Shown here one piece after another: positions 18,523 to 52,558 of a DNA stretch of 52,600 bases. The stretch comes from a bacterium (GTDB lineage: Bacteria; Patescibacteriota; Doudnabacteria; UBA920; VMFF01): the NCBI GenBank assembly GCA_021811585.1, contig JAJZOG010000002.1, forward strand, positions 1 to 52,600, written 5' to 3'. The notes under the pieces are model-generated. The model made no database searches, had not been told where the DNA came from, and was given only the letters and a program-made list of their open reading frames with translations. Within the stretch, counting starts at the first letter, position 1, and every line of letters begins with the position of its first letter. The position numbers were made by a program, and so were the translations under genes.

Positions 18523-19503
18523 TTATTTTTCCGTCAAAAATTTTTCCACATCCAAAGCCGCCATGCAACCCATGCCCGCGGCAGTAACCGCTTGGCGGTA
18601 CCGCGGATCGCCAATATCCCCGGCCACAAAAACGCCCTCCGCACTTGTGCGCGTATTGTTCAAAACCTTTACATATCCGCGCTCATCCAGTTCCACCTGC
18701 CCCTTCAGGAGCCCTGTGTTTGGATGGTGGCCAATTGCCAAAAATAATCCGTCAATTTTCATTTCCGAAACATCGCCGCTCGCCGTATTTTTCAACCTCA
18801 GGCCTTCAACTTTATTTTCGCCCAAAACATCCGCAACTTCGCTGTTGAGCACAAAAGCAATTTTTGGATTTGCCTGCGCGCGCTCCAACATTATTTTTGA
18901 GGCCTTGAATTCACCGCGCCGGTGAATTATCGTCACCTTGTTCGCATATTTTGTCAAAAAATTTGCCTCCTCCATCGCCGAATCGCCGCCGCCGATAACA
19001 GCCACTTCTTTTCCTTTGAAGAAAAACCCGTCGCACGTCGCGCACGCGGAAACGCCTTTACCGCGCAAGCGCTGCTCACCGGGAAGCCCAAGCCAATTCG
19101 CCTCCGCGCCCATTGCCAAAATGACGCTCTGCGCACTGTACTCGCCGCTTTCGGTTTTCACAACCAGCGGCCGCGCGGCAAAATTAACGGCGCTGACAAT
19201 TTCATATAAAATTTTTGCGCCAAACCGCTCTACCTGCTTTATCATGTTGTTCATGAGGTCAGGCCCCATTATGCCCTGGATAAACCCGGGAAAATTTTCA
19301 ACTTCTGTTGTCATCATCAGCTGGCCGCCGGGCGTGATGCCGGCAATGACCAGCGGCCGGAGCTCGGCGCGGGCAGCGTACAAAGCCGCAGTAAGGCCGG
19401 CCGGCCCTGAACCGATAATAATAACTTTATGGAGCGCGCCTGTTTCGGCTTGCGTCTCTGTTGTCGCTACTTTTATTCCATTTGTCCCGTTTGTCTGGTC
19501 CAT
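18523..19503 (-). CDS. trxB: Thioredoxin-disulfide reductase
   Basis: Flavoenzyme that passes electrons from NADPH to thioredoxin. Seen: the FAD motif GSGPAGLTAALYAARAE (31-47), the redox CATC (154-157), the NADP-binding GGGDSAMEEANFL, and the C-terminal FAD motif FVAGDIGDPRYRQAVTAAGMG. The length of 326 aa includes an extra N-terminal segment of about 24 residues, Thr/Asn/Gly-rich, and the start could lie further in. No thioredoxin gene is adjacent; the TlpA-type protein at 21.8 kb is not related to this unit. Confidence 0.93.
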   Translation of the reverse strand: MDQTNGTNGIKVATTETQAETGALHKVIIIGSGPAGLTAALYAARAELRPLVIAGITPGGQLMMTTEVENFPGFIQGIMGPDLMNNMIKQVERFGAKILYEIVSAVNFAARPLVVKTESGEYSAQSVILAMGAEANWLGLPGEQRLRGKGVSACATCDGFFFKGKEVAVIGGGDSAMEEANFLTKYANKVTIIHRRGEFKASKIMLERAQANPKIAFVLNSEVADVLGENKVEGLRLKNTASGDVSEMKIDGLFLAIGHHPNTGLLKGQVELDERGYVKVLNNTRTSAEGVFVAGDIGDPRYRQAVTAAGMGCMAALDVEKFLTEK

Positions 19504-19755: not shown

Positions 19756-19830
19756 GGCGCTATCGTCTAATGGTTAGGACACCACGCTTTCAATGTGGGA
19801 ATCCGGGTCCGATTCCCGGTAGCGCTACCA
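19756..19830 (+). tRNA. tRNA-Glu(UUC), integration site
   Basis: 75-nt cloverleaf ending in an encoded CCA: acceptor GGCGCTA/TAGCGCT (with a G:U first pair), anticodon loop CTTTCAA giving TTC, T-loop TCCGATT. The gene is intact, but its antisense strand encodes the last 21 or so residues of the neighbouring recombinase. The acceptor-end wobble could mark where element-derived sequence replaced the host 3' end. Confidence 0.95.
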
Positions 19831-21254
19831 GGCGGGATAGTTTGGCGGTTTGCGACCTCGCGGAATACAGAATCAAGCGTAAATACAGGGGTTTTGGAGC
19901 ACAGCTCGCGGTTCGAGGTTGAGATTTCCAGCAGATCACGTTTTTCGTAGGGATTTGCTTTTAAATACAATGAATATGCGCTTTTTGCGAGTTCGAGGAA
20001 TTTTTCCAACTTCGATGGCATGTCAGGCAGCGGCTCTTGACCCGAGGTCACATTGTTGATCTTTTGCCTCTCCAACAGAAGCGCGGTTCGGCGTTCCTCA
20101 AAAATTGTTTTTTCGAACACACCATCAAGATAGGCATCGGCCAGGCGGTTTAATTTCCATGAAATCTGGGACTCCTGAAGGCGCAAGCCGGCCTTAAATT
20201 CATCTTCTTTGTTTCCCCAATCCTGCCGAAATCCCGCAATGATGTCGTTGATGACGTAATCCTCTTCCGCGGTAAATTGAAGTGGCTTGAATTTCGAAAT
20301 TGCTTCATCATTTAACTTCTCTTCACGCACAGAATTCGTGGGACAGCTTTGGGTATGACAGCGGTAGTAGATATTGCCCTTTGCGATCTCGCCGATAATC
20401 GAATATCCGCAGTGGGCACAGCGCACCAGCCTGCGAAAAAGGAAATCGTGCCGAATAATTTTTGCGTTGGTCCTGCCCTCTGCCACGGCGCGCGCCCTTT
20501 CGAATAGCGAGGCGGAAATTATCGGCTGATGTGCGCCTTGGTAGATTTCGCCGGTTTTCTGAATTTCGATCAGGCCGGCATAAAAGGGATTGGACAAAAT
20601 ACGGGAAATGACGGTTTTTCCTACCTTCCCCCCTGATTTTGTACGCAGCCCCAGGCAATCCATTTTATCGCTCAACTCGATGATGCCGCACTGGCCTGAG
20701 GCATACAGCTCGAACATTCGCCTGATCAAGGGCATGGTCATTTGATCGGGCGTTTTTGGCTTTCCCGGGCCCTGGTCTTTGTATCCCAACGGGGCAGGAC
20801 GCGGGTATATCCCCTGCTTTAGCCTGCCGTAGAAACCTTTGCGGGTCTCTTCGCGCAAGTTGCGGATGTAGTCGGCGGCCACGACGGCTTGAATATCAGC
20901 CGAGAGCCGGCCGCCGCGTGATTGCAGGTCAACGGAATCATTGGCAAAACGAACGTCAATTCCGGAATCGATTAGTTCGCCGAGATCCGACCAGTCCTTA
21001 AGGTTTCTGGCGCTCCTGTCGATTTTATGGATGATGACGCCAGAGGCTCGCCCATTTCGCAGTAGTGAAAGCATTTGGGTGAAAACAGGCCGGCCAAGTT
21101 TTGCGGCTGTCTCTCGCTCTTCAAACCATCGGCTGATTTGAAGCTCGTGAATTTTGGCGTATCGTTCAATTGCTTCTCTCTGCTGAGGGAGCGACACTCC
21201 CTGTTCTCCCTGCCTTGCTGTGGAAACGCGGATATATGCGTAGAACTGCTTCAT
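19767..21254 (-). CDS. Large serine recombinase/integrase overlapping tRNA-Glu
   Basis: Site-specific recombinase of 495 aa that would catalyse integration or excision through a phosphoserine intermediate. Domains: an N-terminal resolvase catalytic domain (YIRVSTARQGEQGVSLPQQ with the nucleophile Ser near residue 10, then IIHKIDRSARNLKDW), a Recombinase domain (about 165-260, PLGYKDQGPGKPK), a zinc ribbon (RCAHCGYSI...YYRCHTQSC), and a coiled-coil segment. Oddly, the last 22 residues (…GNRTRIPTLKAW…) are the reverse-strand reading of tRNA-Glu, so the true C-terminus depends on what sequence joins at the attachment site. It points into the tRNA, the standard layout of a tRNA-targeting element. 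Confidence 0.9.
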   Translation of the reverse strand: MKQFYAYIRVSTARQGEQGVSLPQQREAIERYAKIHELQISRWFEERETAAKLGRPVFTQMLSLLRNGRASGVIIHKIDRSARNLKDWSDLGELIDSGIDVRFANDSVDLQSRGGRLSADIQAVVAADYIRNLREETRKGFYGRLKQGIYPRPAPLGYKDQGPGKPKTPDQMTMPLIRRMFELYASGQCGIIELSDKMDCLGLRTKSGGKVGKTVISRILSNPFYAGLIEIQKTGEIYQGAHQPIISASLFERARAVAEGRTNAKIIRHDFLFRRLVRCAHCGYSIIGEIAKGNIYYRCHTQSCPTNSVREEKLNDEAISKFKPLQFTAEEDYVINDIIAGFRQDWGNKEDEFKAGLRLQESQISWKLNRLADAYLDGVFEKTIFEERRTALLLERQKINNVTSGQEPLPDMPSKLEKFLELAKSAYSLYLKANPYEKRDLLEISTSNRELCSKTPVFTLDSVFREVANRQTIPPGSATGNRTRIPTLKAWCPNH

Positions 21255-27749: not shown

Positions 27750-29132
27750 ATGCCCATGGTTTTTTTCGAAACAATCCTCGCCAACACCTGGAACCGGCTC
27801 ATGCGGCTCGGAGATCAGCGCCTCACGGGCGGCCTTGATCTGGGCAAGATGGTGATCGACCGCAGGACATCGAAAAAGCACTTTTACATTCCCCATATCA
27901 AGCGCGCCGAGCACATGGTCGTGCTTGGCAAAACAGGCTCAGGTAAAACCAGGCTGCTACTGCGGATGTGCATGCAGGACATCAAGGCCGGCCGCGGATT
28001 TGTTTTTTTCGACCATCATGGCGACACAATTCCCCTGCTGCTTGCAGCCATCGCGGCTGAAGAAAAGCGCGCCGGCACTGATTTAAGCAAGCAGCTAGTA
28101 GTCATTGATCCCTCGGACCCCGACTGGTCCATAGGACTCAATATTCTGGAGCCGTCAGGGCGCGACCCGTTCGTTGATGTTGTCTCAACGACAACCATCC
28201 TTAAGGACCGCTGGGGCCTGTCGTCATTTGGGGCGCCGACCGAGGAATTGCTGCGAAACAGCCTTTATGCTCTTTGCCAGAGCAGGAAAACCCTGGTTGA
28301 ACTCGGGCCGTTCCTGATGGATTCGGCATTCCGGGCGCAGTGCTTAAAGCACGTTTCCAATCCCGACATCAGAGAATATTTTAAGCTGCGCTTTGAACCG
28401 CTCAGCGAGGCATACAAAGCAGTTAAACGCGATCCGGTTCTGAATAAAGCAGCTGAGTTCACAACTGATCCGCACTTCCGCCACATCATCGGGCAGGAAA
28501 AATCAACGGTTGATCTACTCGACTGCTTTGACAGCGGCAAATGGGTTCTCGTAAACCTTAATAAAGGTAGGCTTGGCCGCCATTCCTCAACCCTGGGAAG
28601 TTTGATTCTTGGCCAGATCAGGCAGCAGGTTTTCCGCAGGCGCACCCGGCAAATATTCACGCTCTACTGCGACGAAATCCAGAACCTGCTAGCTCAGGAC
28701 TCAGGAATTGACGTGCTTTTTGCAGAAGCGCGCAAGTTTGCGGTATCACTGACCACCACAAATCAATTCCTGGATCAGTTCCCAAAGGACATCCGCTCTG
28801 CCATTCAGGCAATCGGTTCTCATATATTTTTCCAGGTATCAAGCGATGATGCCTCAACAGCCGCTTCAATGCTCGACGGCGGCAAAGCGCTTGCCGAGCT
28901 TTTAAAGAACCTGCCCAAGCGCAACTGCATTGCAAAAACCGGGCATTACAAATATCGCCAGGTTGAAATCCCGCCGGTGGAAATTCCAAAGGTTTCCTTT
29001 TCAGACCTTCTGCAGCGCTCGAGAGCATTTTATGCAAGGAGGCGTAGCGACATTGAGGCGGATATCCGCAGCCGCCGGCCAAAAACGTTAACAGGAAATG
29101 CCAAGGAGGAAGTGCTTCGTGAATGGGAATAA
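27750..29132 (+). CDS. VirD4/TraD/HerA-like DNA-translocating ATPase
   Basis: P-loop ATPase of the type IV coupling protein superfamily, which pumps DNA in conjugation. Seen: Walker A GKTGSGKTRLL (60-70), the following FDHHGDTIPLLLAAI and VIDPSDPDWSIGLNILEP segments typical of the TraG/TraD AAD domain, Walker B LYCDEIQNLL, and the sensor-like SLTTTNQFLDQFP. The length of 460 aa is short and lacks the N-terminal TM anchor of VirD4, so it is a soluble version. It ends just inside the replication-relaxation gene and so is probably its partner. Confidence 0.85.
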   Translation: MPMVFFETILANTWNRLMRLGDQRLTGGLDLGKMVIDRRTSKKHFYIPHIKRAEHMVVLGKTGSGKTRLLLRMCMQDIKAGRGFVFFDHHGDTIPLLLAAIAAEEKRAGTDLSKQLVVIDPSDPDWSIGLNILEPSGRDPFVDVVSTTTILKDRWGLSSFGAPTEELLRNSLYALCQSRKTLVELGPFLMDSAFRAQCLKHVSNPDIREYFKLRFEPLSEAYKAVKRDPVLNKAAEFTTDPHFRHIIGQEKSTVDLLDCFDSGKWVLVNLNKGRLGRHSSTLGSLILGQIRQQVFRRRTRQIFTLYCDEIQNLLAQDSGIDVLFAEARKFAVSLTTTNQFLDQFPKDIRSAIQAIGSHIFFQVSSDDASTAASMLDGGKALAELLKNLPKRNCIAKTGHYKYRQVEIPPVEIPKVSFSDLLQRSRAFYARRRSDIEADIRSRRPKTLTGNAKEEVLREWE

Positions 29133-30431: not shown

Positions 30432-30715
30432 ATGATGAAAGCAAGAATCTGGTGGCGCCCGGGCTTGGCGAGGCGCTTTCAATCAAGCAGGTGGCAAAGA
30501 TGCTTGGCTGCTGCCAGTGGACCGTAAGGCACAAGCTCATGCGGCAGGGACTGCCGCACCTGCGGCCCTCTGAGAGCGGCAAATTGATTTTCTTCAAAAA
30601 CCAAGTTGCCGCCTGGGTGATCAAGCGCCAAATACAACAACAAGGAGGTATTCCCATTGACGCTTTACAAGCGAGGACGAATCTTTTGGGCCTACATAAC
30701 CCTAAACGGCCTTAG
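30428..30715 (+). CDS. xis: Excisionase-like HTH protein
   Basis: 95-aa protein with an HTH_17/MerR-like domain (SIKQVAKMLGCCQWTVRHKLMRQGLPHLRP, then GKLIFFKNQVAAWVI), the usual layout of excisionases that bend DNA and direct tyrosine recombinases to excise. It overlaps the start of the integrase gene by 59 bp, a common int/xis arrangement. It could instead act only as a DNA-binding repressor. Confidence 0.75.
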   Translation: MNDESKNLVAPGLGEALSIKQVAKMLGCCQWTVRHKLMRQGLPHLRPSESGKLIFFKNQVAAWVIKRQIQQQGGIPIDALQARTNLLGLHNPKRP

Positions 30716-31784
30716 GCATGCCCGTTCAACAGGAACAGGCAACCGAAAGCTTGCCGAAACCATTGGCCGCAAGTTCGAAGAGGAGCTTTTGACCTGCCAG
30801 GAGGGCATCACAAAACTTCAGCCCGAAATGAAATTTCAGGAGCTTGCCGCCCGCTTTATTGCCGAAGGCGAGGTCAAGCCCTGGCACCTGGAGCGCCTAA
30901 AGCAGCTCCTTCCCTTCTGGGGAGGCCTGCCGCTTCGCTCCATAACCAAAGGCACTGTCCGGGTATACCGCATGGAGCGGCTAAAGCAAAAGAAACTGAC
31001 AGAGAAGACCATCAGCCACGATCTTGCGGTTGTCCGCCACCTGCTTTTCTGGGCTCAGGATGAAGGCATTGTTGCCGCAAACCCGCTAACCAGGCTACGG
31101 CTTCCCAGGGCCCGGCACCGCAAGCGGCCGGTCCTGAGTTTTGAAGAAGAACAAAAACTGCTCACCTCAGCTGCAGTCCACCTTAAGCCCATCATCCTTA
31201 GTGCCATTGACACAGGCATGAGGCGAGGAGAACTTCTCACTCAACGCTGGGAGGATGTTGACTTCCAGCGCGGACTTCTCTCCGTCTCGCATTCGAAAAC
31301 AGCCGAAGGTGAACAGAGGGAAATTCCGCTAACCGATCGGATGGTTTCACTGCTTGAAGGCCAAAGGAAATCATCAGGCCTTGTCTTCACGTTCCAGGGA
31401 AATGCGATCAACAGGATAAAGACGGCCTGGAAGACGGCATTAAAGAAAAGCGGGATACGGGCGATGCGCTTCCATGATCTACGCCACACGTTCAATACAA
31501 GGCTGCTTGAGGTTGGAATTGTCGCTGATGTTCGTAAAGCCCTAATGGGCCATTCCTTAGGCGATGATCCCCATGCCCTATATACCCACGTCGAGCTGCC
31601 GCTAAAGCGAAAGGCAATCCAGGCGCTTAATGCCTGGATTTGGGAGCAGGTCAAAGCGGCCAAGCAAGCTCAACAGCATTTGCAAGTAGATACAGGTGAA
31701 AGGCGGCTGCTTGGGCCGCCAACAGTCGAGGTTTTGTCCGAAAAGCTCAAGGAGGAAAGCTATGAGCGCAGAGAAAAAGTCTGA
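30657..31784 (+). CDS. int: Tyrosine recombinase/integrase
   Basis: Phage-type integrase of 375 aa. TTG start at 30657 behind AAGGAGG. Seen: an N-terminal arm-binding-like segment, a core-binding SAM-like domain (WHLERLKQLLPFWGG, VYRMERLKQKKLTEKTISHDLAVVRHLLFW), and the catalytic domain with R (DTGMRRGELLTQRWEDV), the beta-hairpin Lys region (VSHSKTAEGEQREIPL), HxxR (FHDLRHTFNTRL), GHSLG and the nucleophile Tyr in DPHALYTHVE. All catalytic residues are present. Preceded by the excisionase and followed closely by a small gene with its own SD. Confidence 0.9.
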   Translation: MTLYKRGRIFWAYITLNGLRHARSTGTGNRKLAETIGRKFEEELLTCQEGITKLQPEMKFQELAARFIAEGEVKPWHLERLKQLLPFWGGLPLRSITKGTVRVYRMERLKQKKLTEKTISHDLAVVRHLLFWAQDEGIVAANPLTRLRLPRARHRKRPVLSFEEEQKLLTSAAVHLKPIILSAIDTGMRRGELLTQRWEDVDFQRGLLSVSHSKTAEGEQREIPLTDRMVSLLEGQRKSSGLVFTFQGNAINRIKTAWKTALKKSGIRAMRFHDLRHTFNTRLLEVGIVADVRKALMGHSLGDDPHALYTHVELPLKRKAIQALNAWIWEQVKAAKQAQQHLQVDTGERRLLGPPTVEVLSEKLKEESYERREKV

Positions 31785-40011: not shown

Positions 40012-43000
40012 ATGCATCAATTCCAACGAATTTCATTCCGGCATTTGAATGGATGCGGGCTGCTCTTCCTGTTGGTTGCAACGGTTACGGCCCAGGTTCA
40101 ATTGCAGAGTATTCCCGTGAAGCACGGGCCGTGGTTGAAGCCGCTGCGCTTGAATCCTGCCGGCTCGACCGATCCATTGAAAATATTTCAGGTTTGGCGG
40201 CGGCGCAATCTGGTCACGCTGCCGGCAACGCCCGAGGTATGGCAGGCGCACCTGAAATGGCTGCAACTGCATCCGCGGATTGCGCGGCAACTGCGAAACA
40301 TGCGGCGCGTTCCGGCGCGGCGTGAGCGGACGGGCAATCTGAACCTGGCGGGGGTCGTGAGCGATGGGAATGTCGTGCCGGCGAATGGCCTGAGCGCGTA
40401 CCAGGGCGAGATCGCGGCAGCGATCAATCCCGGCAATGTGCAGCAGATGACGGCGTCGGCGAACTCTTTTTTGCCTGACCCACAATGTAGCGATATCTCG
40501 ACACTGTCGCTATACGGTTCGCAGGATGGCGGGCAAAACTGGAATTACAGTTGTGCCCCCATACCGTCCGTCTTGGACCACACCCTGTTCGGCTCGGATC
40601 CTTCGCTTGCTTGGGATGCCAATGGCAATGCCTATGCGGCGTATATGTTGTTGCGGAATGATCCCAATATTGCCAATACATACGATTCCGCCATCGTGGT
40701 GGCGAAAAGCAGCGATGGCGGGCAAAGCTGGACGAGCTTAGGGGTGGTGGTCAATCACTACGGCGATCCCTATCATTTCGACGACAAGGAAATGATCGCG
40801 GTTGACCGCAGCAGTGGTCAGGCGTATTCACATCCCAACCGGCTGTATGTCATCTGGGATGAAAACAATACCGAGATGATCGCCCATTCGGACGATGGCG
40901 CGAGTTGGTCGCCGGTCGTGGTTGAAGATGCGGCGGATGCGGGCGACGATATTGGCGGCAATTTAGCCATCGGTCCCGAGGGTACGGTGTATGCAATTTG
41001 GACCCGAGCCGGAAGCGCTCCGAACACGCCCTACGGCGGCGACAGCCTGGTGTTTTGCAAATCCAGCGACGGCGGCCAGAGTTGGACAGCGCCGGCGACG
41101 ATTGCTGCCGGTCAACTGGCGATCATTACTGACAATGTCCTAATCCCGGCGCAGGACCAGCGCGGCATCAATGCCTTCGGCTCGATTGCGGTGGACGATA
41201 GCGCCTCGGCATACCGCGGCTCGATCTATGTCGTTTATAACGAAACCCCGCCAGGCGTGAACGCGCCCGAGCCGCTGGATGGCATTCCCGTGCAGCCGGC
41301 GGTCAATATTTACGCGATTCAGTCGAGCGACGGCGGCGCGATCTGGAGCCCGCCGCTACAAGTAAATGACGATGGCAGCGATGGTGCCTCGCACTTTTTC
41401 CCCTGGTGCGTGGTGGACCCAACGAATGGGATTTTAAGCGTGGCCTGGTACGACACGCGCAACGATCCCGGATACTTGATGCGGACACAGATTTATTACG
41501 CGCAATCCACCGATGGAGGAGCCAGCTTTTCACCCAACCTGCAAGTGACGCAGGCGGCGTCCGGGCTGGACAATAGCTCGGTTGACTACAACGATGAGAA
41601 TTCGTTGGAAAACTTTTTTTCTAATCCCAACCAGTACGGCGATTACACCCAAGTCAGCGCGGCGGGCGGGAAAGTGCTGATTGGGTGGACGGACACGCGG
41701 CAATTTTATCCGCAAGACGGAGTGAATCCGCTGGGCGAGGATCTGGTAACGGACACGTTAGAGAACGGCGCGTCACTGACCTACACTATTTCCGGGCGCG
41801 TGACGGACGCAAACGGACAAGGCATTGCAGGCGTGGCGGTGGCGGCAGGCGGAGCCAGCGCGGCGACCGACGGCGCGGGTCACTATACGCTGTTCGGGCT
41901 GGCGAATGGCGATTATACGGTCAGCGCCAACTCGGCAAATTTCAGCTTTAGCCCGAACAGTATCGCGGTCTCCGTTCAATGCGCGCCCGTTGCCGGAGTG
42001 GATTTCACGGCAACCGCCACGGCTCTGGTGTATTCGATTTCAGGCCAGGTGACGCTGAACGGAACGGGGTTGGAAGGCGTGGCAGTAAGCGATGGAACCG
42101 CTATGGCGATCACGGATAATTCGGGCAATTATGTCCTGGCCGGCCTGCCGGCGGGCAATTACACGATCACCGCAACCGATCCTGCCTACAGCCTCGCGCC
42201 CGGCTCGCGAGCAGTAACGCTAGGCGGCGATGTTAACGGTATTGATTTCAGCGTGCCGGTGTATTCGATTTCGGGAAGAGTTTACGGCACCTGGCCGGAG
42301 GGAGGATCGCCTTGTTGCGCCTCCATTGGCGCCGTGGCCGGTGCTACCATACAGGCCGGAGGGCATGCCACGGTCACCGATGCGAATGGCGAGTACACGA
42401 TTTCCGGCTTGCCTTCAGGCACGTATATCGTTACCGCCCAAATGCCCGGCTTCTGGGTGAATGCCTCCTTCCCGCCCTTTATAGACGATCCCACCGAATA
42501 TGTGTTCTTGACCGGCGCCAATCAGGTCAACGTCGATTTCATTGCGCAGGCGCAAGGCGTCTATAAAATTACCGGCAATATCCAGCAAAACGGGGCTGGC
42601 GTTTCCGGCGTCAAAATCGCTAGCGGCAATACCTTCGGCATCAGCGACAGCCAGGGCCACTATGCGCTGTTCGAGAATGATGGCACTATCACTTTCACAC
42701 CCAGCAAGCCCGGGTATAGTTTCAGCCCCGCCAGCCAAACTTTTTCGATTCCGGCGGGCACTCCCAACGTCATAACCGGCCCGAATTTCAGCGCGACCGC
42801 CACCCAAGGCCTGCACAGCATCAGCGGACAGGTGACGAGCGGAGGCGCCGGCCTGGCAGGTGTGACCGTGGCCGCGGGTTTCAGCTCGGGATTAAGCGAT
42901 GCGCAGGGCAATTACACGATCAGCGGATTGAGCGACGGCGGCTACATGCTGGATGCTGTGGCCGATCAATACGTGTTTACGCCGGTGTGGCAGCCTGCCA

Positions 43001-44928
43001 CGGTGGCGGGCAGCGACATCGGCGGATTCAATTTTAGCGGCGCTACAGCCTTGTTTTCGATCTCAGGCACGATCGCCAATGAGGCCGGCCAACCGCTCGC
43101 TGGCGCAACCGTGACCACGCAACAATTTATCTCGACAACGCCAATTACGGCCACAACCGATGCCCAAGGAAACTACACCTTGAGCGGGCTGCCGCCACAA
43201 AGCGAGGCATACCTGGTAACGCCCAGCGACAAAGGATATAGTTTTCTGCCATTTTTTGGCTGGTCGCCGGTTTCTAACGCCGATGTCACCGGGATCAATT
43301 TCACCGCCATCCCGGCGCTTACAGTCAGCGGCAGAATTACAGACACCAGCGGCGCTGGAGTCGGCGAAATCTATATCTATCCCGATGTGGCCCTCAACAC
43401 CACCATTGAAACCGACAGCGAGGGCAATTACAGCCTGACGATGCCGCCCGGAGATTACACGCTCAGGCCGGTGGATGGCTTAGGGCTGTACAACTTCGAC
43501 CCTGCAGCAGCGCGTATCCATCTTGATACGAGCAATTTAAGCGGGGTCAATTTCAGCGCCTCGCAAAATTTTCAGATCTCCGGCCAGGTGCTGAACGGGG
43601 CTACGGGCGTGCCGGGCGCGTCGGTGAAGTTGTTCCTGGAATCGTTCAGTCTGGAAAATGCGACATACGGTGCCACGACAACCACCGATGCGCATGGCAC
43701 CTTTTATTTCAACAACGTGCCTTCCGACATCGGCGTGCAACTGATGCCGGTGCTGCCGGGCTATGGACTGAATCCCCCCGGCGAATATTTGCAAATGGTT
43801 TACGACCGGTTTTATCCGCCCGAAATCTTCCAGGTCGTGCCGGGGGCGGTGGTTTCCGGCACTGCCGCAGATGGACAAGGGAACCCCATTCCTTATGTGA
43901 TGCTGAACACCCAGCCCGCCACGCCCACCAGTTGGGATATCGAGACATATATCACCGATCCGAACGGGGTCTTTGCCGTAAGCATGCCGGCCGGCGGTTA
44001 CAAAATCACGCCTTGGGATGGAGTGCACGTATTCACGCCGGCGAGCGCGAACATCACCGTCCAGCCAGGAGCCGCGGTGAGCGTCAATTTCAGCGGCGCC
44101 GTTCCCACGCTGGCGATGAGCTTGGGACAAACGCAATACACCATCAACGGCAGCGTGAATACCCTGAATGACCCGGTTACGTTTACCAGCAACGTCAACC
44201 AGGCGGTGAACATTTCCTGCCCATGCAGTTACAGTCCCATGCCGATGCTGTCGCAAGGCAGCGGCACGCTTACCTTTAATGGGCTGGCCAACGGGGCCGA
44301 ATCGCAGCAGACGGAGACGATCGAGGCCAATCTTCTCGGAGCCACGCAAACCCAGACCGTCACGATCAACCGGCAAAGCCTGACGCTGGCGGCCGGCACA
44401 TCCAGCGCTACCGTCAATGCAGGGCAAATCGCGGATTATACGGTGAACGTGACTGCCGTGAATGGCTATGCCGGAGCTGTGACCCTCAGTTGCAGTTCGC
44501 AGGCGAATTATGTATGCAGCGCCAGCCCTGCGAATCCCTCGCTGTCCGCCAATGGCGCGGTCGCAGTTACCATTGCCGTAAATACGGCCGCCAAGACGAA
44601 TGGAAAGTCCAAACCAGGAAAGCATGGGGCAGGCTGGGCCGGCGGATTCAGCCTGGGCGGGCTGGGGTTGGCCCTTCTGATCGCCTGGCTGCCGATCGGC
44701 AAGCGTTCCGGGCAAGGCCGGCGCTCCGCAGCTCGGCGCAGGGTCCGGCGTTGGACGCCGGCGTTGTTGTTTCTCGCCATGAGCGGCTGCGGCGGTAACC
44801 CAAGTTATACGCCTCCCCCTCCGACGCCCATCACGACTACGGTGTCCAGCAGTGTGATTGTCTATGCCACCGCGGGGAGTCTCGCCCAGACGCTCACGTT
44901 GACCTTAAACGTGCAAACCACAAGCTGA
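40012..44928 (+). CDS. Very large secreted protein with Asp-box and carboxypeptidase-regulatory repeats
   Basis: 1638-aa exported protein. A Sec signal (CGLLFLLVATVTAQ) is followed by a sialidase-like beta-propeller region (about 120-590) with Asp-box motifs SSDGGQSWTS, SDDGASWSP, SSDGGQSWTA, SSDGGAIWSP and STDGGASFSP. About nine carboxypeptidase-regulatory/Cna-B-like domains follow (YTISGRVTDANGQGIAGVAV and relatives), then an Ig-like domain (ATVNAGQIADYTVNVTAVNG). The end has a TM helix (GLGLALLIAWLPIG), an Arg-rich stretch, a second hydrophobic segment and SGCGG. The style is well known from Acidobacteriota. No Glu/Tyr catalytic set of a true sialidase was identified, so a binding or surface role is likelier than an enzyme. 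Confidence 0.8.
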   Translation: MHQFQRISFRHLNGCGLLFLLVATVTAQVQLQSIPVKHGPWLKPLRLNPAGSTDPLKIFQVWRRRNLVTLPATPEVWQAHLKWLQLHPRIARQLRNMRRVPARRERTGNLNLAGVVSDGNVVPANGLSAYQGEIAAAINPGNVQQMTASANSFLPDPQCSDISTLSLYGSQDGGQNWNYSCAPIPSVLDHTLFGSDPSLAWDANGNAYAAYMLLRNDPNIANTYDSAIVVAKSSDGGQSWTSLGVVVNHYGDPYHFDDKEMIAVDRSSGQAYSHPNRLYVIWDENNTEMIAHSDDGASWSPVVVEDAADAGDDIGGNLAIGPEGTVYAIWTRAGSAPNTPYGGDSLVFCKSSDGGQSWTAPATIAAGQLAIITDNVLIPAQDQRGINAFGSIAVDDSASAYRGSIYVVYNETPPGVNAPEPLDGIPVQPAVNIYAIQSSDGGAIWSPPLQVNDDGSDGASHFFPWCVVDPTNGILSVAWYDTRNDPGYLMRTQIYYAQSTDGGASFSPNLQVTQAASGLDNSSVDYNDENSLENFFSNPNQYGDYTQVSAAGGKVLIGWTDTRQFYPQDGVNPLGEDLVTDTLENGASLTYTISGRVTDANGQGIAGVAVAAGGASAATDGAGHYTLFGLANGDYTVSANSANFSFSPNSIAVSVQCAPVAGVDFTATATALVYSISGQVTLNGTGLEGVAVSDGTAMAITDNSGNYVLAGLPAGNYTITATDPAYSLAPGSRAVTLGGDVNGIDFSVPVYSISGRVYGTWPEGGSPCCASIGAVAGATIQAGGHATVTDANGEYTISGLPSGTYIVTAQMPGFWVNASFPPFIDDPTEYVFLTGANQVNVDFIAQAQGVYKITGNIQQNGAGVSGVKIASGNTFGISDSQGHYALFENDGTITFTPSKPGYSFSPASQTFSIPAGTPNVITGPNFSATATQGLHSISGQVTSGGAGLAGVTVAAGFSSGLSDAQGNYTISGLSDGGYMLDAVADQYVFTPVWQPATVAGSDIGGFNFSGATALFSISGTIANEAGQPLAGATVTTQQFISTTPITATTDAQGNYTLSGLPPQSEAYLVTPSDKGYSFLPFFGWSPVSNADVTGINFTAIPALTVSGRITDTSGAGVGEIYIYPDVALNTTIETDSEGNYSLTMPPGDYTLRPVDGLGLYNFDPAAARIHLDTSNLSGVNFSASQNFQISGQVLNGATGVPGASVKLFLESFSLENATYGATTTTDAHGTFYFNNVPSDIGVQLMPVLPGYGLNPPGEYLQMVYDRFYPPEIFQVVPGAVVSGTAADGQGNPIPYVMLNTQPATPTSWDIETYITDPNGVFAVSMPAGGYKITPWDGVHVFTPASANITVQPGAAVSVNFSGAVPTLAMSLGQTQYTINGSVNTLNDPVTFTSNVNQAVNISCPCSYSPMPMLSQGSGTLTFNGLANGAESQQTETIEANLLGATQTQTVTINRQSLTLAAGTSSATVNAGQIADYTVNVTAVNGYAGAVTLSCSSQANYVCSASPANPSLSANGAVAVTIAVNTAAKTNGKSKPGKHGAGWAGGFSLGGLGLALLIAWLPIGKRSGQGRRSAARRRVRRWTPALLFLAMSGCGGNPSYTPPPPTPITTTVSSSVIVYATAGSLAQTLTLTLNVQTTS

Positions 44929-45412
44929 TGCGCTGGCCAGATCGTTTGGCCGCCGCAGGTCGGTGTTTTTATGACTTCAACCCGCCTTTGACCCAATATT
45001 CCGTTTTTTGCCCTTTTCAGGTGAATGACTGGTTTGTGAAAAACTGCGGGGAAGGTTGGCGAAAACCTTTTTGATTATTGTAAAATACCAACCACTTTAC
45101 GTCTTTTCCAGGTGGCGCCAGACATGTCCGCGGACGCGAGGATTGCAACCGATCTGTCCCCGATCAATGAATTTCGTCTCCGTCAGGCGTTGAGTATCAT
45201 TCATGCGCGTTTTCGCGAGGAAACCTTAACGGTCGAAATTATCTCGCGCGATTTAGGTTTCTCATCCAGCCTATTACGCCAGCTTTTCCACCGATATTTG
45301 GAAACGACCCCGGTTAAATATATTTGCCATATCCGCCTCAAACAGGCTCTGACGCTGATGCGAGTCAATCCGGGGCAGGAAATCAAGCAAATCATGATGC
45401 AATCAGGATTTA

Positions 45413-45418
45413 GCGACC
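45413..45418 (+). repeat. Left target-site duplication of the IS3 element
   Basis: GCGACC here is repeated at 46594-46599 on the other side of the insertion. Confidence 0.8.
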
Positions 45419-45497
45419 TGACCTGGTCTGGGTATTTTAGACACAAAGGTCGAAATCAATTAACATTGTGTCATAAACTAAATATCCAATAATAAAT

Positions 45498-45758
45498 ATG
45501 CCAAAGAAACATAATAATATATCTTCTGACCTCAAAGCAGATATTCTGCGCCGGGTTAAAGAAGAAGGAATACCGGTATCCCAGGCAGCCAAAGATCATG
45601 GCATCCATGAATCAACCATATATTCCTGGCTAACTAAGGGAGCCAGCGGTTCTCCATCATTCGCTGAGTTTGCAAGGATAGCAAGGCAAAACAAGGAACT
45701 TTTAGAACTGGTGGGAGAGTTAACCTTGAAAATGTCCCAAGCCCAAAAAAACAGCTAG
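45498..45758 (+). CDS. IS3 transposase OrfA
   Basis: 86-aa DNA-binding half of the transposase. The HTH_Tnp_1-type helix-turn-helix is clear (LKADILRRVKEEGIPVSQAAKDHGIHESTIYSWL) and a C-terminal leucine-zipper-like helix follows (NKELLELVGELTLKM). Near its end the run CCCAAAAAAAC is a typical -1 slippery site; a -1 shift continues in the open OrfB frame (QLGKTQNKKALAKALGISRS), giving the fused OrfAB transposase. Confidence 0.9.
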   Translation: MPKKHNNISSDLKADILRRVKEEGIPVSQAAKDHGIHESTIYSWLTKGASGSPSFAEFARIARQNKELLELVGELTLKMSQAQKNS

Positions 45759-45793
45759 GTAAAACTCAAAACAAGAAAGCCTTAGCTAAAGCA

Positions 45794-46576
45794 TTGGGAA
45801 TATCCCGCAGTAGCCTTTACTACAAATCACGCTTAGATGCTAAAGACTGGCAAACTAAGATTAAGATGGAAGAAGAACTTCAAGTGCATCCATCCTACGG
45901 ATCAAGGAATTTAGCCAAAGCGCTTCATATTGGCAGGGATCAAGCCAGAAGGGTGATGCGCAAATATGGTATTAAGCCTTACAGGAGAAGGAGAATTAAA
46001 AAATGGCGTAAACCAAAGCATTCTCACACATTCCCTAACCTGCTTTTGGCTGCACGTCCTAGTTATGAAGATCATGTTTGGGCCACTGATTTTACGGAGT
46101 TAATTTTCCATGGCAGTAAAGTATACATATCAACCATAATTGACTTGTTTACCAGGAAAACCGCGGGGTTGCATGTTGGGGTACGCAAAGGAGCAGCCTT
46201 AACTATTCAAACGCTTGCCAATGCCTTAATGCACAAACCGCCACCCAATATTCTTCATTCTGATAATGGCAAAGAATATGAAGCCCAAAGCTACGTTAAT
46301 ATGCTTAATCAATTTGGTATTAACATCTCCAGGTCAAGGCCGGCTTGTCCTTGGGAAAATGGCTATCAGGAAAGTTTTTATGGCAAATTCAAGCTGGATT
46401 TAGGAGACCCAAACAGATTTAAAACACTAGGTGGACTTGTTGCTGAAATATACAGAGTTATCTGGCATTACAACAATACCAGAATACATTCAGCTCTAAA
46501 TATGCCGCCTGCCATATTTGCCAACCAGCAGGCATCAAAAAAGACGACTTTAGGAGTCGTCGAATTACTGTCTTAA
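45794..46576 (+). CDS. IS3 transposase OrfB (DDE integrase core)
   Basis: 260-aa catalytic half. The HTH_21 segment (VHPSYGSRNLAKAL…RRVMRKYGIKPYRR) precedes the rve core with the DDE residues in WATDFTEL, HSDNGKEY and PWENGYQESFYGKFK. The C-terminal YNNTRIHSALNMPPAIF is the standard IS3 ending. It probably functions as part of the OrfAB frameshift product; the frame is open back to the OrfA slippery run, so a stand-alone TTG start is not required. Confidence 0.92.
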   Translation: MGISRSSLYYKSRLDAKDWQTKIKMEEELQVHPSYGSRNLAKALHIGRDQARRVMRKYGIKPYRRRRIKKWRKPKHSHTFPNLLLAARPSYEDHVWATDFTELIFHGSKVYISTIIDLFTRKTAGLHVGVRKGAALTIQTLANALMHKPPPNILHSDNGKEYEAQSYVNMLNQFGINISRSRPACPWENGYQESFYGKFKLDLGDPNRFKTLGGLVAEIYRVIWHYNNTRIHSALNMPPAIFANQQASKKTTLGVVELLS

Positions 46577-46593
46577 AAAACCAGACCTTGACA

Positions 46594-46599
46594 GCGACC
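46594..46599 (+). repeat. Right target-site duplication of the IS3 element
   Basis: GCGACC, the direct copy of 45413-45418; the AraC reading frame resumes here. Confidence 0.8.
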
Positions 46600-46865
46600 C
46601 CTGCTATTTCAATCGCATCTTTAAGAAGAATCTGGGCATGACCCCTGGGGAAGCTCGCTCCCGAATCGCGCGAAATTTGCCTGTAATACTCGCCGAGTAT
46701 CAGGATTAGCCTCGCCTGGTCCACCAGCTTTCGAAAAAGACAACGATATTTCGAAAAAGACAATTTTTTATCAATTTATTCAATTTTATTTTCTTGCGTG
46801 CGGGATAGTCTTGCGGGTTTGATAGCGGCAGGCTTTTGCCTGTGGGTGAGCGGAGGGGAATAAAG

Positions 46866-49800
46866 ATGCGACTCTCATGGCTCGGCAGGGTAGTGAGTCT
46901 ATGTATTGGCTTAATATTAATACTTTCAACAATGGCCTGGGCGCAGGAAGCGAATTTTACCGATGTGACCTCTACGCCTGTGCCTGGAGCCGGCCATGAC
47001 TACATTAAAGGCCTGAATGAAAGCGTGAACCCCGGGAATGGGTCTCTCAGTATACATATCAACATCCCGCTTCCCGCCGGGCGTCAGCTCAACATCCCCT
47101 TCTCCATCAATTACGACTCCACGGAAACCAACTATCCAGCCGGCACGTCAGGAATCGGCTGGAAGAGTGCCGAAAATCTAGAGCGGATAGGCGGATGGAC
47201 CTACACTGAGCCCGTGGTTACGGCCTCGACCAATCAATCAACAATTCAAGTGGCTTTCAATGAATTGGTTACGTGCGATGTATCTATTAACTATATGGCG
47301 ACAGACCTTACCGGACAGTCGCATCCGCTCGATCTCTCCATTTATGGAATCAAGCCCGGCTCCCGACCCTATGGCCAATACAACAGCAGTTGCTCGCAAT
47401 CGCTTTACCCGGATGGTACAAGCCCGGTGCAACGGACTACGGGCGGGGATGCGCCTTTCTATGCGGATACCAGCGCCGATACCTCAAACGGCACCTCATT
47501 TCAATTTAATCCGGTTACGATGATCGCGCCGGATGGCACTCGTATAACTTTTCCCGGCGGTCCGGCAGGCGATGGGACCAGCTACTCGGAACGCGCTAAT
47601 CAGCTTGAAGACCGAAATGGCAATATTATTACCGTGACTGCAACAGGCACTACGGGTTTTTACTATACTGACACTCTAGGCCGCACATTACTATCAGTGT
47701 CGAGTATAGGTGGAGCCCCTGATGATATTTATGTATCCGGCATCAGCAATCCTTACGTGGTTAATTGGACAAATACCAATGTGAGTTGGAACCCCGCGGC
47801 GGTTCCTCTTTCGGGGACTTACTGTACTGGTTTCTCATCGCTGAGCACATTACGAGGCGTAATCAGCTCGATTCAATTACCGAACGGCCAAAGCTACCAA
47901 TTCCAATATGATGGGACGTATGGATTTGTCAGTAAAATTATTTATCCCTCGGGCGGATATGTCCGATACGTGTGGGGATTGCAAAATCCTTGGGAAGTAG
48001 GAGATTATTCGTGCGGTTCTTACCGTTATGCCTGGCCAGTAATTACCGATCGGTACGTAAGCTATGATGGCACGAATGAAGTATTGCACCAGCATTTTAA
48101 CTATTCCGAAAGTTATACTTCAGGCGAAGATGGTTATGATAGCAGGACCACTACGATAACCACCTACGATATGGCGCGGAACACACAATATCAAACGGTA
48201 TACACTTATAAACCATTGTACGTCCAACCACAAATTAATGACAATTCTGTGAGCTCGAATACGGTGACGCTTGAGCAGGAGATCCAATATTATAATTACA
48301 ATGGAAATTTGTTGAAAACCGTTAACAAAACATGGGGCGGTATTAAAGAATTATTGACGCGCACGGTTCAGTATAATGATAACTCAAATAACCCTACTCG
48401 AGAAATCGCCTGGCATTATGATAATAATCTACAAACTACCGAAATTGATAATTACGATTTCGGCAATGGGTCGCCCGGCGCTTTATTGCGGAAAAAGCTG
48501 ATTAGCTATGCCAGCTTTGGTAATAATCCCTGGAACGAACCCAGCCATATCGTGGACCGCCCGAGCCAGGTGGAAATCGAGGATGGCAGCGGTAATGTCT
48601 GTTCGCAGACGCTTTATGATTATGACCAGCAGGATACACAATCAACGTCGGGCATTTCGCAGCATGACGATACAAATTATTCGAGTAGTTTTAATGTGCG
48701 AGGCAATCTGACCGAGGTTCAACGGTGGGATAATAATACCTGTTCCACTAGCCCGGGCGGCAATTATCTCAATACAACGATTACTTATGACGATACTGGC
48801 CAACCGTTGATATTGACCAATCCCCGCGGCTACCAAACCTCTTTGGGTTATGCCGATCAGAACGCTTATGTATCAACTTTTACGGACTCCATGGGCGACG
48901 TTTGGCAGCGTAGCTATAACCAAGCAACCGGAACGCTAGCCTCGCAGATTGATCCCAACAATCAAACGACGAGCTTTTATTACAATGACATCCTTTCGCG
49001 GCTGACGGAAATAGATTTTCCCGACAGCGGCAAGACTACGGTTGCCTATGACGACACACCGGGCCAGGTTTCGACAACTGTCCAGCGTTACCTGAATGGC
49101 TCCGCTTGGACCGATCAGGTCACGCTTTATAATGGTTTGGGAATGCAATTGTCCGTATCCACCGCCAATGGCGAGGGCAGCCCCTGGGATCGCCATGATA
49201 CTGAGTACGATGGTGATGGCCGCATTCTGGTGTCCGGCTATGCCTACCAAACCGGTACGAGTCCGACGACTTGGCCGTCCAGCTTTACCGGAGACACTTT
49301 TACCTATGATTCCCTGGGGCGAACAACAGTCGATACCCACAGTGATGGCACCTCAGCCAACACTACATATTCGGGAAGAGCTTTGGAAGTATCCGATGAG
49401 GGCGACGGCAGCTACAATGTCACACGCATTTCCCAGATCAACGGCTTAAAGCAGGTGCTGGATCTATGTGAAGTGACGACTATTACCGATGCAGCAGGCA
49501 ACGCAGCCAACCAATGTGGCGGCCTCGATATCACGCCTTCGGGTGGATTTCTGACTACGTATGGATATGATACATTAGGCAATCTGATATCTGTGACACA
49601 AAATGGCAGCGCACATTCATTGAATCCGCGTACTTATAGTTTTGACACTTTATCGCGTTTGATTTCATCCACCAACCCGGAATCCGGCACCACCACCTAT
49701 GCCTATGACGGCGACAGCAATTGTTCGAGCAGCTATCCGGGGCTTTTGGCCAGCCAAACCGATCCGCGCGGCATTCGCACCTGCTTTCAGTACGATCCGC

Positions 49801-51791
49801 TGAATCGGGTAACGCAAAAAAGTTATTCGGATGGCACCGCCAGCGCCAATTTTGTTTATAGTTCCACCAATAGCTTGATTGGCAGCTATATGGGTATTTC
49901 GCTGACCAACACCATTGGCCGTTTGGCGTATGAATATACCGGCACAAGTCCTTCATCGCCCCAAACCGCGGAAGTCTTTTCCTATGACGCGCTCGGTCGC
50001 ATCGTCAACAACTCGCAGTGCGTCACCTACACGTGCTCCAGTGGGAATTTCTTCCCAGTTTCCTACGGATGGGACAATGCCGGCGAGCTGACGAGCTCAA
50101 CCAATGGCGCCGGGGTGAGCTTTACCGATGCCTACAACCAGGCGGAGCGTCTGATCAGCCTGGTGAGCAGTATCGGCAATACCACGCTGATTTCCGGACT
50201 GCACTATAATGCCTTTGGGGAAGAGGTCTCCGGCGCGCTGGGAAGCGGCCAGGGTGAAAGCCGGGGCTATGACGTGCGTGGACGCCTCACCAGCATGGAT
50301 CTGGGCAGTTCTGTTTACACCCTTTCGCTCAGCTATATGCCGAATGGCACGATCGATACGGCCGATGATTCGGTCAACGGCAATTGGACTTTCAGCTACG
50401 ATCCGCAAAACCGGCTGAGCGCCAGTTCCTGCTCAGCGAACTCCACCGCCAATTGTCCCGATGGGGGCGCGTCGCAGGGCTTTAGCTATTCCTACGACCG
50501 CTATGGCAATCGCTGGGCGCAGACGGTGACTGCGGGCACGGGCCCGGGGCCCTCCAATTCCTTCACCGGTGGCAACAATCACATGGATGGCTATAGCTAT
50601 GACGCCGCCGGCGATCTGCTCAGCGACGGCCATTGCACCTATACCTACGACGGCGCCGGCCGGATCAGCTCCGTCTCATCCTGTGCATCGGCCAGCTACA
50701 TCTATAACGCCAGCGGCCAGCGGGTTTACAAGGAGACTGGCACTATTGAGAAGGCATACGTAGTCGATTTGGCCGCCAATGCGGTGGCGCATTTTACCTA
50801 CAACGGCACGGCCTGGAGCTACGATCGCGGCGAGGTTTACGCCGGCGGGCGGCATCTGGCCACCTACAATAGCGGCACGCTTTACTACAACCAATCCGAT
50901 TGGCTGGGAACCGAGCGGATGCGCACCACATCGAGTGGCACGCCCTGTGAGGCGATTCAAAGCCTGCCCTACGGCGATGGGCAAAATACGATTGCCCAAA
51001 ATGGCGGCTGCGGCGACCCCTCGCCACTGCATTTTACCGGCAAGCAGCGCGATGCCGAATCGGGACTCGATTATTTCGGCGCGCGTTATAACGACAGCAG
51101 CCTCGGCCGTTTCATGACGCCCGATCCGTTGAATGGGAAGCTTGGGAATGGATTGAGTTGGAACCGTTATCTGTACACCTTAGATAATCCCGTTACCTTT
51201 ACCGATCCGACGGGAATGGCGCCTGACCTTCCCCCAACTGCAGCAGGCGAACCTCAAGAAACCTGCGGAGGAACTTTTGAATGTGCGGGAACAAGTGATA
51301 AAACTGATACAAATACCAGAAAAGTTCAAAAAAAGGCGCAACAGCAGTTGAGCCAGAAAGGTCTTGAATTCATAGCCCGCCATGAAGGACTCGGCGGAAA
51401 GAAGGTAGGTGGCAGATACCAGGTATACAAAGACGCCTATGGCAATCCGACTGTCGGCTATGGCCACCTCGTCAGAGGCGAGGATTTTTCCAAAGGCGTC
51501 ACGAAAGCGCAGGCCCTCGCTCTCCTGAAGAGTGATGCTCAAACCGCTGTATCGTTCGTGAACGGGCATCTGTCAGGGACTCTGAAGCAAACCCAGTTTG
51601 ATTCCTTGGTGGACGTTGCTTTCAATAGCGAAAGAGCAGCAGCGATCCTCATCAAAAGAGTCAATAGCTCCGAGACAATGGGACCGGCTAATTTTGTAAA
51701 CACGCTCCCACACGGCTATCACAGTCTGCCTGGTTTAATCAACCGACGTGAAGACGAAGCGAATCTATTTCTGAATGGGGGCTATCAATGA
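46866..51791 (+). CDS. Secreted RHS/YD-repeat protein with a C-terminal GH24 lysozyme
   Basis: 1641-aa polymorphic-toxin-like protein. ATG 46866 follows GAGGGG; a Sec signal (SLCIGLILILSTMAWAQ) directs export. A long beta-rich shell of YD repeats follows (YDTLGNLISVTQNG, YDPLNRVTQKSY, YDALGRIVNNS, YDAAGDLLSDG and many more), then the RHS core boundary (GKQRDAESGLDYFGARYNDSSLGRFMTPDPL). After about 55 linker residues, the last 150 residues are a phage-type lysozyme: FIARHEGL (catalytic Glu), VYKDAYGNPTVGYGHL (Asp and Thr of the T4-type triad) and the end GLINRREDEANLFLNG. It would cleave peptidoglycan. The stop overlaps the next gene by 4 bp. Confidence 0.88.
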   Translation: MRLSWLGRVVSLCIGLILILSTMAWAQEANFTDVTSTPVPGAGHDYIKGLNESVNPGNGSLSIHINIPLPAGRQLNIPFSINYDSTETNYPAGTSGIGWKSAENLERIGGWTYTEPVVTASTNQSTIQVAFNELVTCDVSINYMATDLTGQSHPLDLSIYGIKPGSRPYGQYNSSCSQSLYPDGTSPVQRTTGGDAPFYADTSADTSNGTSFQFNPVTMIAPDGTRITFPGGPAGDGTSYSERANQLEDRNGNIITVTATGTTGFYYTDTLGRTLLSVSSIGGAPDDIYVSGISNPYVVNWTNTNVSWNPAAVPLSGTYCTGFSSLSTLRGVISSIQLPNGQSYQFQYDGTYGFVSKIIYPSGGYVRYVWGLQNPWEVGDYSCGSYRYAWPVITDRYVSYDGTNEVLHQHFNYSESYTSGEDGYDSRTTTITTYDMARNTQYQTVYTYKPLYVQPQINDNSVSSNTVTLEQEIQYYNYNGNLLKTVNKTWGGIKELLTRTVQYNDNSNNPTREIAWHYDNNLQTTEIDNYDFGNGSPGALLRKKLISYASFGNNPWNEPSHIVDRPSQVEIEDGSGNVCSQTLYDYDQQDTQSTSGISQHDDTNYSSSFNVRGNLTEVQRWDNNTCSTSPGGNYLNTTITYDDTGQPLILTNPRGYQTSLGYADQNAYVSTFTDSMGDVWQRSYNQATGTLASQIDPNNQTTSFYYNDILSRLTEIDFPDSGKTTVAYDDTPGQVSTTVQRYLNGSAWTDQVTLYNGLGMQLSVSTANGEGSPWDRHDTEYDGDGRILVSGYAYQTGTSPTTWPSSFTGDTFTYDSLGRTTVDTHSDGTSANTTYSGRALEVSDEGDGSYNVTRISQINGLKQVLDLCEVTTITDAAGNAANQCGGLDITPSGGFLTTYGYDTLGNLISVTQNGSAHSLNPRTYSFDTLSRLISSTNPESGTTTYAYDGDSNCSSSYPGLLASQTDPRGIRTCFQYDPLNRVTQKSYSDGTASANFVYSSTNSLIGSYMGISLTNTIGRLAYEYTGTSPSSPQTAEVFSYDALGRIVNNSQCVTYTCSSGNFFPVSYGWDNAGELTSSTNGAGVSFTDAYNQAERLISLVSSIGNTTLISGLHYNAFGEEVSGALGSGQGESRGYDVRGRLTSMDLGSSVYTLSLSYMPNGTIDTADDSVNGNWTFSYDPQNRLSASSCSANSTANCPDGGASQGFSYSYDRYGNRWAQTVTAGTGPGPSNSFTGGNNHMDGYSYDAAGDLLSDGHCTYTYDGAGRISSVSSCASASYIYNASGQRVYKETGTIEKAYVVDLAANAVAHFTYNGTAWSYDRGEVYAGGRHLATYNSGTLYYNQSDWLGTERMRTTSSGTPCEAIQSLPYGDGQNTIAQNGGCGDPSPLHFTGKQRDAESGLDYFGARYNDSSLGRFMTPDPLNGKLGNGLSWNRYLYTLDNPVTFTDPTGMAPDLPPTAAGEPQETCGGTFECAGTSDKTDTNTRKVQKKAQQQLSQKGLEFIARHEGLGGKKVGGRYQVYKDAYGNPTVGYGHLVRGEDFSKGVTKAQALALLKSDAQTAVSFVNGHLSGTLKQTQFDSLVDVAFNSERAAAILIKRVNSSETMGPANFVNTLPHGYHSLPGLINRREDEANLFLNGGYQ

Positions 51792-52558
51792 TTATCCACC
51801 AGCGCGCGTTAGCATGCATGGGTCCAGCGGCCCTATTTATTCTGTTCATTCCGGGAATTGCTCAGGCAAGGACGTCCAGTCCAAAGCCCCCATGTGACAG
51901 CGCCGCCAGTTGCAACCAACTCGGCACGCAGGCTTTCAAGAGGGGTGATATCCCCGCAGCAATTCAACTGTTCAAACTTCAGGTGGGTTACGCGGAAGAT
52001 GCACAGGACGCGAAACAGTCTGCGGCTGCGTACAACAACCTCGCGCTCGCCTATATGCGAGAGCGGGACTACCTCCGAGCCTCAGCATGGACGCGCCTAG
52101 CACTTCAGGCCGATTCAAAAAGCCAAGCAGCGAAGCACAATCTAATAGGAATTCAAAAGGGCTTGGCTCATCACCGTTGGCCAACAAACATCGGTGGAAC
52201 CTATGTCCAATATGCAGGCCGGACACAGTGGAATTCCCTCTGTGTGTCAAAGCTGCAAGACAAGGGCTTTCATTTCAGGCTGCTTGCCTACCGCATGGGA
52301 GCTGCTTGGCGACGCTACGGTCCCGCAGCGTTAGGTGACCTTAAAGGTGAGGCGACTTTAACCGCCGAAGACGACGCTCAGTATAAAGGCGCTGCCGATT
52401 TTCCCACCTGCCACATTGAGATGAAATTCACACCGAATGGGGTCACTCTCGAACAGCAGGGCGACTGCGGTTTCGGACATGGAGTTCGCGCTGCCGGACA
52501 CTATGAGCGGATCAATACAGTCGGCAATGACAACTGTGACGAGCACGGCCTTCCTTGA
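51788..52558 (+). CDS. Exported TPR protein, candidate immunity to the lysozyme toxin
   Basis: 256 aa, starting in an ATGA overlap with the RHS gene. A Sec signal (AALFILFIPGIAQA) sends it to the periplasm, where the target peptidoglycan lies. Residues 40-120 form two or three TPR-like helix pairs (NQLGTQAFKRGDIPAAIQLF, AAAYNNLALAYMRERDYLRAS). The C-terminal 120 residues are a separate beta-rich domain with conserved-looking Cys and Trp (GGTYVQYAGRTQWNSLCVS, CHIEMKFTPNGVTLEQQGDCGFG). Its compact Cys-bearing beta form is reminiscent of periplasmic lysozyme inhibitors, but I cannot assign a family. Confidence 0.6.
   Translation: MIIHQRALACMGPAALFILFIPGIAQARTSSPKPPCDSAASCNQLGTQAFKRGDIPAAIQLFKLQVGYAEDAQDAKQSAAAYNNLALAYMRERDYLRASAWTRLALQADSKSQAAKHNLIGIQKGLAHHRWPTNIGGTYVQYAGRTQWNSLCVSKLQDKGFHFRLLAYRMGAAWRRYGPAALGDLKGEATLTAEDDAQYKGAADFPTCHIEMKFTPNGVTLEQQGDCGFGHGVRAAGHYERINTVGNDNCDEHGLP

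Follow-up and report, generated by a model that had tools for sequence, protein, structure and literature searches.

Large serine recombinases of the family described here probably act as element integrases that carry attP inside the end of their own open reading frame (ORF), target the 3' ends of tRNA and tmRNA genes and exchange their C-terminal tail on integration. We put the probability of this reading at roughly 0.8. The case concerns a recombinase gene that runs antisense into a tRNA-Glu gene in the window, i.e., the whole stretch of DNA analyzed, which is one whole contig of 52,600 bp from a genome of 0.75 Mb that resembles Patescibacteria in size and gene content. In the literature searched, rewriting of a gene by integration was described only in archaeal tyrosine integrases and, in a repressor, in mycobacteriophages; the present family would be a large, testable bacterial case of an integrase gene that is rewritten by its own integration.

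The recombinase gene and the tRNA of the window

The initial annotation placed the C-terminus of the recombinase on the antisense strand of tRNA-Glu, and the ARAGORN and ORF coordinates agree with it (Table 1). The two genes overlap by 64 nt, which hold 20 whole sense codons and the stop, and one more codon shares the last base of the tRNA. The C-terminal tail is GSATGNRTRIPTLKAWCPNH, as first given, and ends at a TAG stop (19767-19769) within the tRNA-Glu D-arm. The protein has the domains of a large serine recombinase, namely the Resolvase N-domain, the Recombinase domain and the zinc ribbon (Pfam Resolvase, Recombinase and Zn_ribbon_recom, each above the cut-off). The same genome encodes three further serine recombinases, more distantly related, which end normally and have no tRNA there. 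The T-loop of the window tRNA-Glu is TCCGATT, with C at position 55, and that of relatives is TTCGATT; the predicted attB motif is therefore CGGAC, a departure from CGAAC that counts against our main explanation.

Table 1. Features of the recombinase locus and of the neighboring genes in the window.
Feature	Position	Strand	Basis
tRNA-Glu(TTC), predicted target, attB half B'	19756..19830	+	ARAGORN; 3' CCA encoded
Large serine recombinase, 495 aa, antisense into tRNA-Glu	19767..21254	-	ORF and Pfam; relatives 42-55% identical (L114, L118, L119, L120)
Predicted core TGGTAG (tRNA 3' end CTACCA read antisense), expected to hold the crossover	19825..19830	-	Predicted from attL, attR, attP* and empty sites of relatives, which switch at TGG + 2-4 nt
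Predicted zinc-domain motif of attB, T-loop, CGGAC replacing the usual CGAAC, +19 from core	19807..19811	-	Sequence; +19 in 78/78 CCA-encoding targets
Predicted P half-site, within the recombinase coding sequence	19831..19855	-	Predicted; the corresponding element DNA of relatives recurs upstream of the gene
C-tail codons and stop, predicted to come from host tRNA DNA	19767..19824	-	Predicted from the native tails of relatives; native tail codons expected at the element's far end
trxB, host flank, tRNA side	18523..19503	-	67-70% identical trxB adjoins tRNA-Glu in G001, G002 and G004
TraG/HerA-like ATPase, same element	27750..29132	+	Homologue accompanies the serine recombinase in G200:C81 and in a Sulfitobacter plasmid
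Tyrosine recombinase, probably same element	30657..31784	+	In G200:C81, too, a tyrosine recombinase adjoins the TraG-like gene

Recombinase 3' ends among the homologues

Homologues were gathered from 145 genomes, many of them draft MAGs, and were retrieved with their flanks. The resulting survey set comprises 111 distinct ORFs whose 3' end is intact; besides Patescibacteria, plasmid records, phage records and MAGs of other phyla contributed a few. A convergent, opposite-strand tRNA or tmRNA lies at the 3' end of 89 of these ORFs, 86 of which read through the RNA 3' terminus, and a same-sense RNA in this position was found in none of the 111. The targets are tmRNA and every tRNA isotype except Cys (Glu, Asn, Gln, Ser, Leu, Gly, Trp, Pro, Asp, His, Ile, Lys, Ala, Met, Thr, Val, Phe, Tyr, and Arg), and group I introns are present in some of the target tRNAs. 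Tyrosine recombinases of the same genomes have no antisense tRNA at their 3' end (0/30), a weak control, most of them probably being Xer-type housekeeping enzymes. The tRNA-reading 3' end is a rule of the family and not a matter of chance. A search of viral contigs for family members returned distant relatives only. Two human gut records designated 'Bacteriophage sp.', L115 (MT836653) and L116 (MT837677), have the same arrangement, with the recombinase running into tRNA-Glu and tRNA-Leu, respectively.

Position of the crossover

It was first suggested that the attachment site lies within the recombinase gene. In relatives this was borne out by attL, attR, attP-like copies and empty sites, but the crossover falls at the CCA/discriminator end and not in the tRNA body, so that the 64-nt overlap consists almost wholly of host DNA. 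Upstream of the recombinase, 20 elements carry a second, inverted copy (90-100% identical) of the 77-179 nt of element DNA that adjoin the tRNA 3' end. After the TGG of this inverted copy (attP*, P-TGG-P') comes a different arm, P', and the tRNA is absent. P' is found in direct orientation 3-7 kb away (attR) in 11 of the 20 elements, starting exactly at the core in 10 and 3 nt into the core in one (L086); an attR without TGG places the crossover of L086 at the discriminator or first acceptor bases. Two more attR sites (L058 and L106) were read by eye from short core repeats. The order of such an element is host-TGG-P'-cargo-rc(P')-CCA-rc(P)-recombinase-P-TGG-tRNA, and TGG with 2-4 further bases is common to attL, attR and attP*.

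Empty sites in related genomes, which the initial annotation had proposed as a check, point to the same position. In G042 the alignment is continuous over the predicted junction of the tRNA-Ser insertion of G033, and G075, whose genome is a single contig, has 28 bp between the flanks that border the tRNA-Ile element in G053. Comparison of the tRNA-Asn insertion of G101 with G145 and G146 gave no clean empty site. Together with the attL/attR pairs, the empty sites indicate site-specific integration into a defined attB in relatives, where the crossover maps to the tRNA 3' end (antisense CCA and 2-4 nt), inside the recombinase ORF. When attR was searched in relatives by the motif only, 9 of 89 reversed sequences gave a false positive. 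Because of this real false-positive rate, the tail argument below is restricted to the P' copies that are defined by repeats.

Several further features were seen around these sites. A complete inverted attP-like site lies upstream of the recombinase in L063, L065, L066, L070, L074, L079, L086, L105, L153, L178, L191 and others, with cargo between the site and attR; its candidate roles are an inversion switch, an operator or a second attP. Next to the attR of G053:C1 (L065), ~470 bp that are absent from G075 separate the conserved host flank from attR and are perhaps the relic of an earlier insertion. L084 has two attR-like sites (motif-based match), 5.3 and 10.4 kb away from one tRNA-Ala, with a nearly identical native tail, a sign of stacked insertions. 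In L073 (G009:C95, 2745-2805), a partial tRNA-Glu copy of 61 nt and the full tRNA are 1.5 kb apart, and the stretch that separates them has no recombinase.

C-terminal tails of the circular and integrated forms

The circular form of the 20 elements was rebuilt by joining P to P' in sequence. The rebuilt tails are alike and follow the pattern L-[LYF]-x-x-[AVI]-R-T-x-[FY]; examples are WSQLLNEARTFYEENPNENF, LVWLYNEVRTYFSKNY, LERLFETARTHFMRNG, and WRCLLYKIRTYFETNPDDE. In 18 of the 20 the native tail ends 13-21 residues past the core, and of the other two, one owes its greater length to masked bases and the second is extended. The integrated tails have 3 to 65 residues, use all three phases and share neither an end nor a sequence. 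Conservation of the native tail is found in the reading frame (mean BLOSUM62 of 1.51 vs. 0.26 and 0.13 in the other frames), and no in-frame stops occur through P', against 8/20 and 12/20 in the other frames. For each of the 19 elements that could be scored, adding the motif offset and the reading phase gives a multiple of three. This agreement extends across about five changes of phase on the tree; the elements are related and do not count as 19 independent cases. Arg is retained by the use of AGA where the DNA word differs, and the offset moves between 23, 24, and 25 with the reading phase. The frame-specific conservation and the agreement of offset and phase argue that the native gene end lies in P' and is lost on integration. 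Judged from the relatives, the native tail is selected as protein and integration replaces it with a tRNA-antisense peptide.

The proposal that integrated and circular forms encode different C-termini holds in relatives, with 20 rebuilt circular forms and a conserved native tail, and is a prediction for the element in the window, which continues off the contig at its far end. The comparison of C-termini in relatives at other tRNAs, also proposed initially, showed integrated tails that differ freely and native tails that are conserved. An ssrA-like end common to the tails, native or integrated, was not apparent when they were read by eye.

One possible option is that the overlap is passive. The recombinase would then lie against the att site for compactness, attP would yield the native tail as a by-product that can be dispensed with, and a tail coded by the tRNA would have no effect on activity. 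The diversity of integrated tails in length, phase, and sequence fits this option in that the integrated protein would tolerate any tail, and the catalytic, recombinase, and zinc domains are left intact. However, conservation of the native tail as protein, synonymous codon changes and phase-compensating shifts would be unneeded if DNA-site function alone were at work. We give the passive overlap some weight as an explanation, although we do not expect it to be the correct one.

The element in the window

The gene order efp-trxB-tRNA-Glu is kept in the family relatives G001, G002, and G004; in G002 and G004 the recombinase is absent and in G001 a different recombinase is found in the same tRNA. 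No attR was found within the 52,600-bp contig, and the element extends past the contig end. Motif-only attR candidates in the window were weak matches inside intact ORFs and were rejected. Long direct tRNA repeats were likewise discarded as att sites, as none exceeds 12 nt in the window; cores elsewhere are short.

The closest relatives of the window recombinase are L118 (contig of an Acidobacteria MAG), L120 (Verrucomicrobia MAG), L119 (Patescibacteria MAG, at tRNA-Arg) and the one on the circular Sulfitobacter plasmid NZ_CP081110. L118, L120 and the Sulfitobacter plasmid, all without a tRNA there, have P'-type tails (RTLEKSFHVISNYF, RTWDRLLDILAKL, and RTLRQWLKDEF) with CGAAC at +25 and the same phase as the window gene. 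From these three we infer that the window element would also have a circular form and exchange its tail. The P' of L118 may belong to a tandem neighbor, which counts against our main explanation. A second P' copy (85%) lies in direct orientation at 13277-13433 of L118 (G200:C81), 1.85 kb past the recombinase core, and suggests tandem element arrays. An AlphaFold model of L118, made from 4 sequences, had a pLDDT of 58, i.e., low confidence, and was left unused for tail structure.

Another hypothesis, which concerns the window only, is that the crossover is deeper in the tRNA and that the element brought in the tRNA 3' half, as tyrosine integrases do. It would fit the presence of a tyrosine recombinase in the region and the identity of the window tRNA-Glu, which is 99% to those of other families (G045 and G009) but only 76-87% to those found at this trxB locus within its own family. 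This pattern of identity suggests tRNA gene exchange. Every mapped relative, however, crosses at the 3' end, and both types of tRNA-Glu are spread across families; we find a deeper crossover unlikely.

Recognition of the target

Counted from the first base of TGG, the antisense T-loop word CGAAC lies at +19 in all 78 CCA-encoding tRNA targets, a position that is fixed by tRNA anatomy. The same word occurs in P' at +24 (+23 or +25 by reading phase). In LI integrase, the zinc-domain motif was found to be 5 bp further out in attP than in attB (Rutherford 2013; PMC3783163). A shift of ~5 bp is present in our relatives (+19 vs. +23 to +25), and the window displays its attB side only. The tmRNA-targeting L108 and L197 have AAAAC at +24 and the tmRNA itself has TAAAC, so that the motif follows the target. 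By sequence, attB is universal tRNA anatomy, with the antisense CCA as core and the T-loop CGAAC at +19 as the predicted motif for zinc-domain binding. Serine integrases that use the conserved CCA and T-loop in this manner would explain the spread over nearly all isotypes and tmRNA.

The motif can also be read to mean that P' is conserved solely as a DNA site for recombinase binding and that the ORF through it is incidental. P' has to be an att half-site, and CGAAC is found in tRNA T-loops as well, but the conservation is frame-specific, in-frame stops are missing, Arg is kept by AGA and the offset tracks the phase. This largely refutes the DNA-site reading, which we regard as quite improbable. 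That the overlap is an artefact of ORF calling, with the real gene ending or broken before the tRNA, is hardly credible: antisense tRNA is frequently open-frame by chance, but the window gene has no stop before the core and 86 of 89 homologues read past the RNA 3' end.

Proposed mechanism

In the tail-exchange mechanism that we favor, attP would sit in the last part of the integrase ORF. Its P arm would be 3' coding sequence, its core the antisense CCA with a few bases matching the target tRNA, and its P' arm, as in relatives, would encode the native conserved C-tail and the stop. The attP motif presumed to be bound would lie ~5 bp further out than that of attB, in line with the attP/attB rule. 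Integration would send P' to the far end of the element and fuse the gene to the tRNA, and the post-core codons and the stop would then come from the antisense tRNA, as seen in relatives and predicted for the window. Since the native tail is conserved as protein and always lost, the integrated enzyme is likely impaired or changed, and the element may be locked in until excision or until another recombinase acts. Most likely, integration alters or disables the integrase and so stabilizes the insertion. It was suggested at first that the exchange could switch activity or stability between the two states.

A more far-reaching version, which we offer tentatively, is that these are bacterial self-editing serine integrases in which removal of the tail turns the enzyme off or reverses its preference. 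The inverted attP copy near the promoter in many elements might permit a flip back onto the native tail, i.e., a reversible switch, and the universal tRNA target would let cassettes spread over nearly all Patescibacteria tRNA genes. A flipped recombinase with its 5' end at the tRNA was seen in none of the elements of the inverted-repeat type, and inversion stays an idea.

Comparison with known systems

The family shares its domain order and the ~5-bp shift of the att motif with the large serine integrases A118/LI, TP901-1, and SPbeta YokA (PMC3783163); solved structures among relatives are those of TP901-1 (3bvp) and YokA (9dxh). Unlike these integrases, the family targets the tRNA/tmRNA 3' ends of nearly every isotype and has attP inside the integrase gene. 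According to the Islander paper, tRNA genes are not among the known targets of serine integrases (PMC4383910). The archaeal suicidal (SSV-type) integrases also have the att site in the integrase gene, which is altered by integration, and self-disrupting recombinases were reviewed as exclusively archaeal (PMC8371274). The SSV-type enzymes are tyrosine recombinases that are split into int(N) and int(C) with separation of the catalytic part, whereas here, with att likewise within the integrase gene in relatives, a protein with serine recombinase domains sheds only its last ~16-20 residues in a C-tail exchange.

The closest logic is that of mycobacteriophage repressors (PMC4557955). In the integration-dependent immunity of BPs, attP also lies in a gene and integration changes the C-terminus and the fate of the protein. 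There the gene is a repressor and an ssrA-like tag is removed, whereas here the gene is an integrase and no common degradation tag is evident to the eye in native or integrated tails. Neither tRNA-targeting serine integrases nor bacterial 'suicidal' serine integrases are described in the literature searched, which was covered in part, and a text search of later papers did not return the arrangement either.

Cargo and other genes

The cargo of the elements is mixed and includes an EcoRI-type methylase with an HNH/GmrSD-type restriction enzyme, as well as DNA methylase, HDAC-like, radical SAM, NAPRTase, and aminotransferase genes. The family exposes short cassette-carrying elements in Patescibacteria, a group with little-known mobile elements, and integrases with a universal tRNA 3'-end attB could serve as tools. 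Further along the window, at 40012-52558, a 1638-aa protein with a carboxypeptidase regulatory domain, an IS transposase (rve domain) and a long RHS-like ORF have a shifted GC (0.59, 0.44, and 0.56) and are probably foreign.
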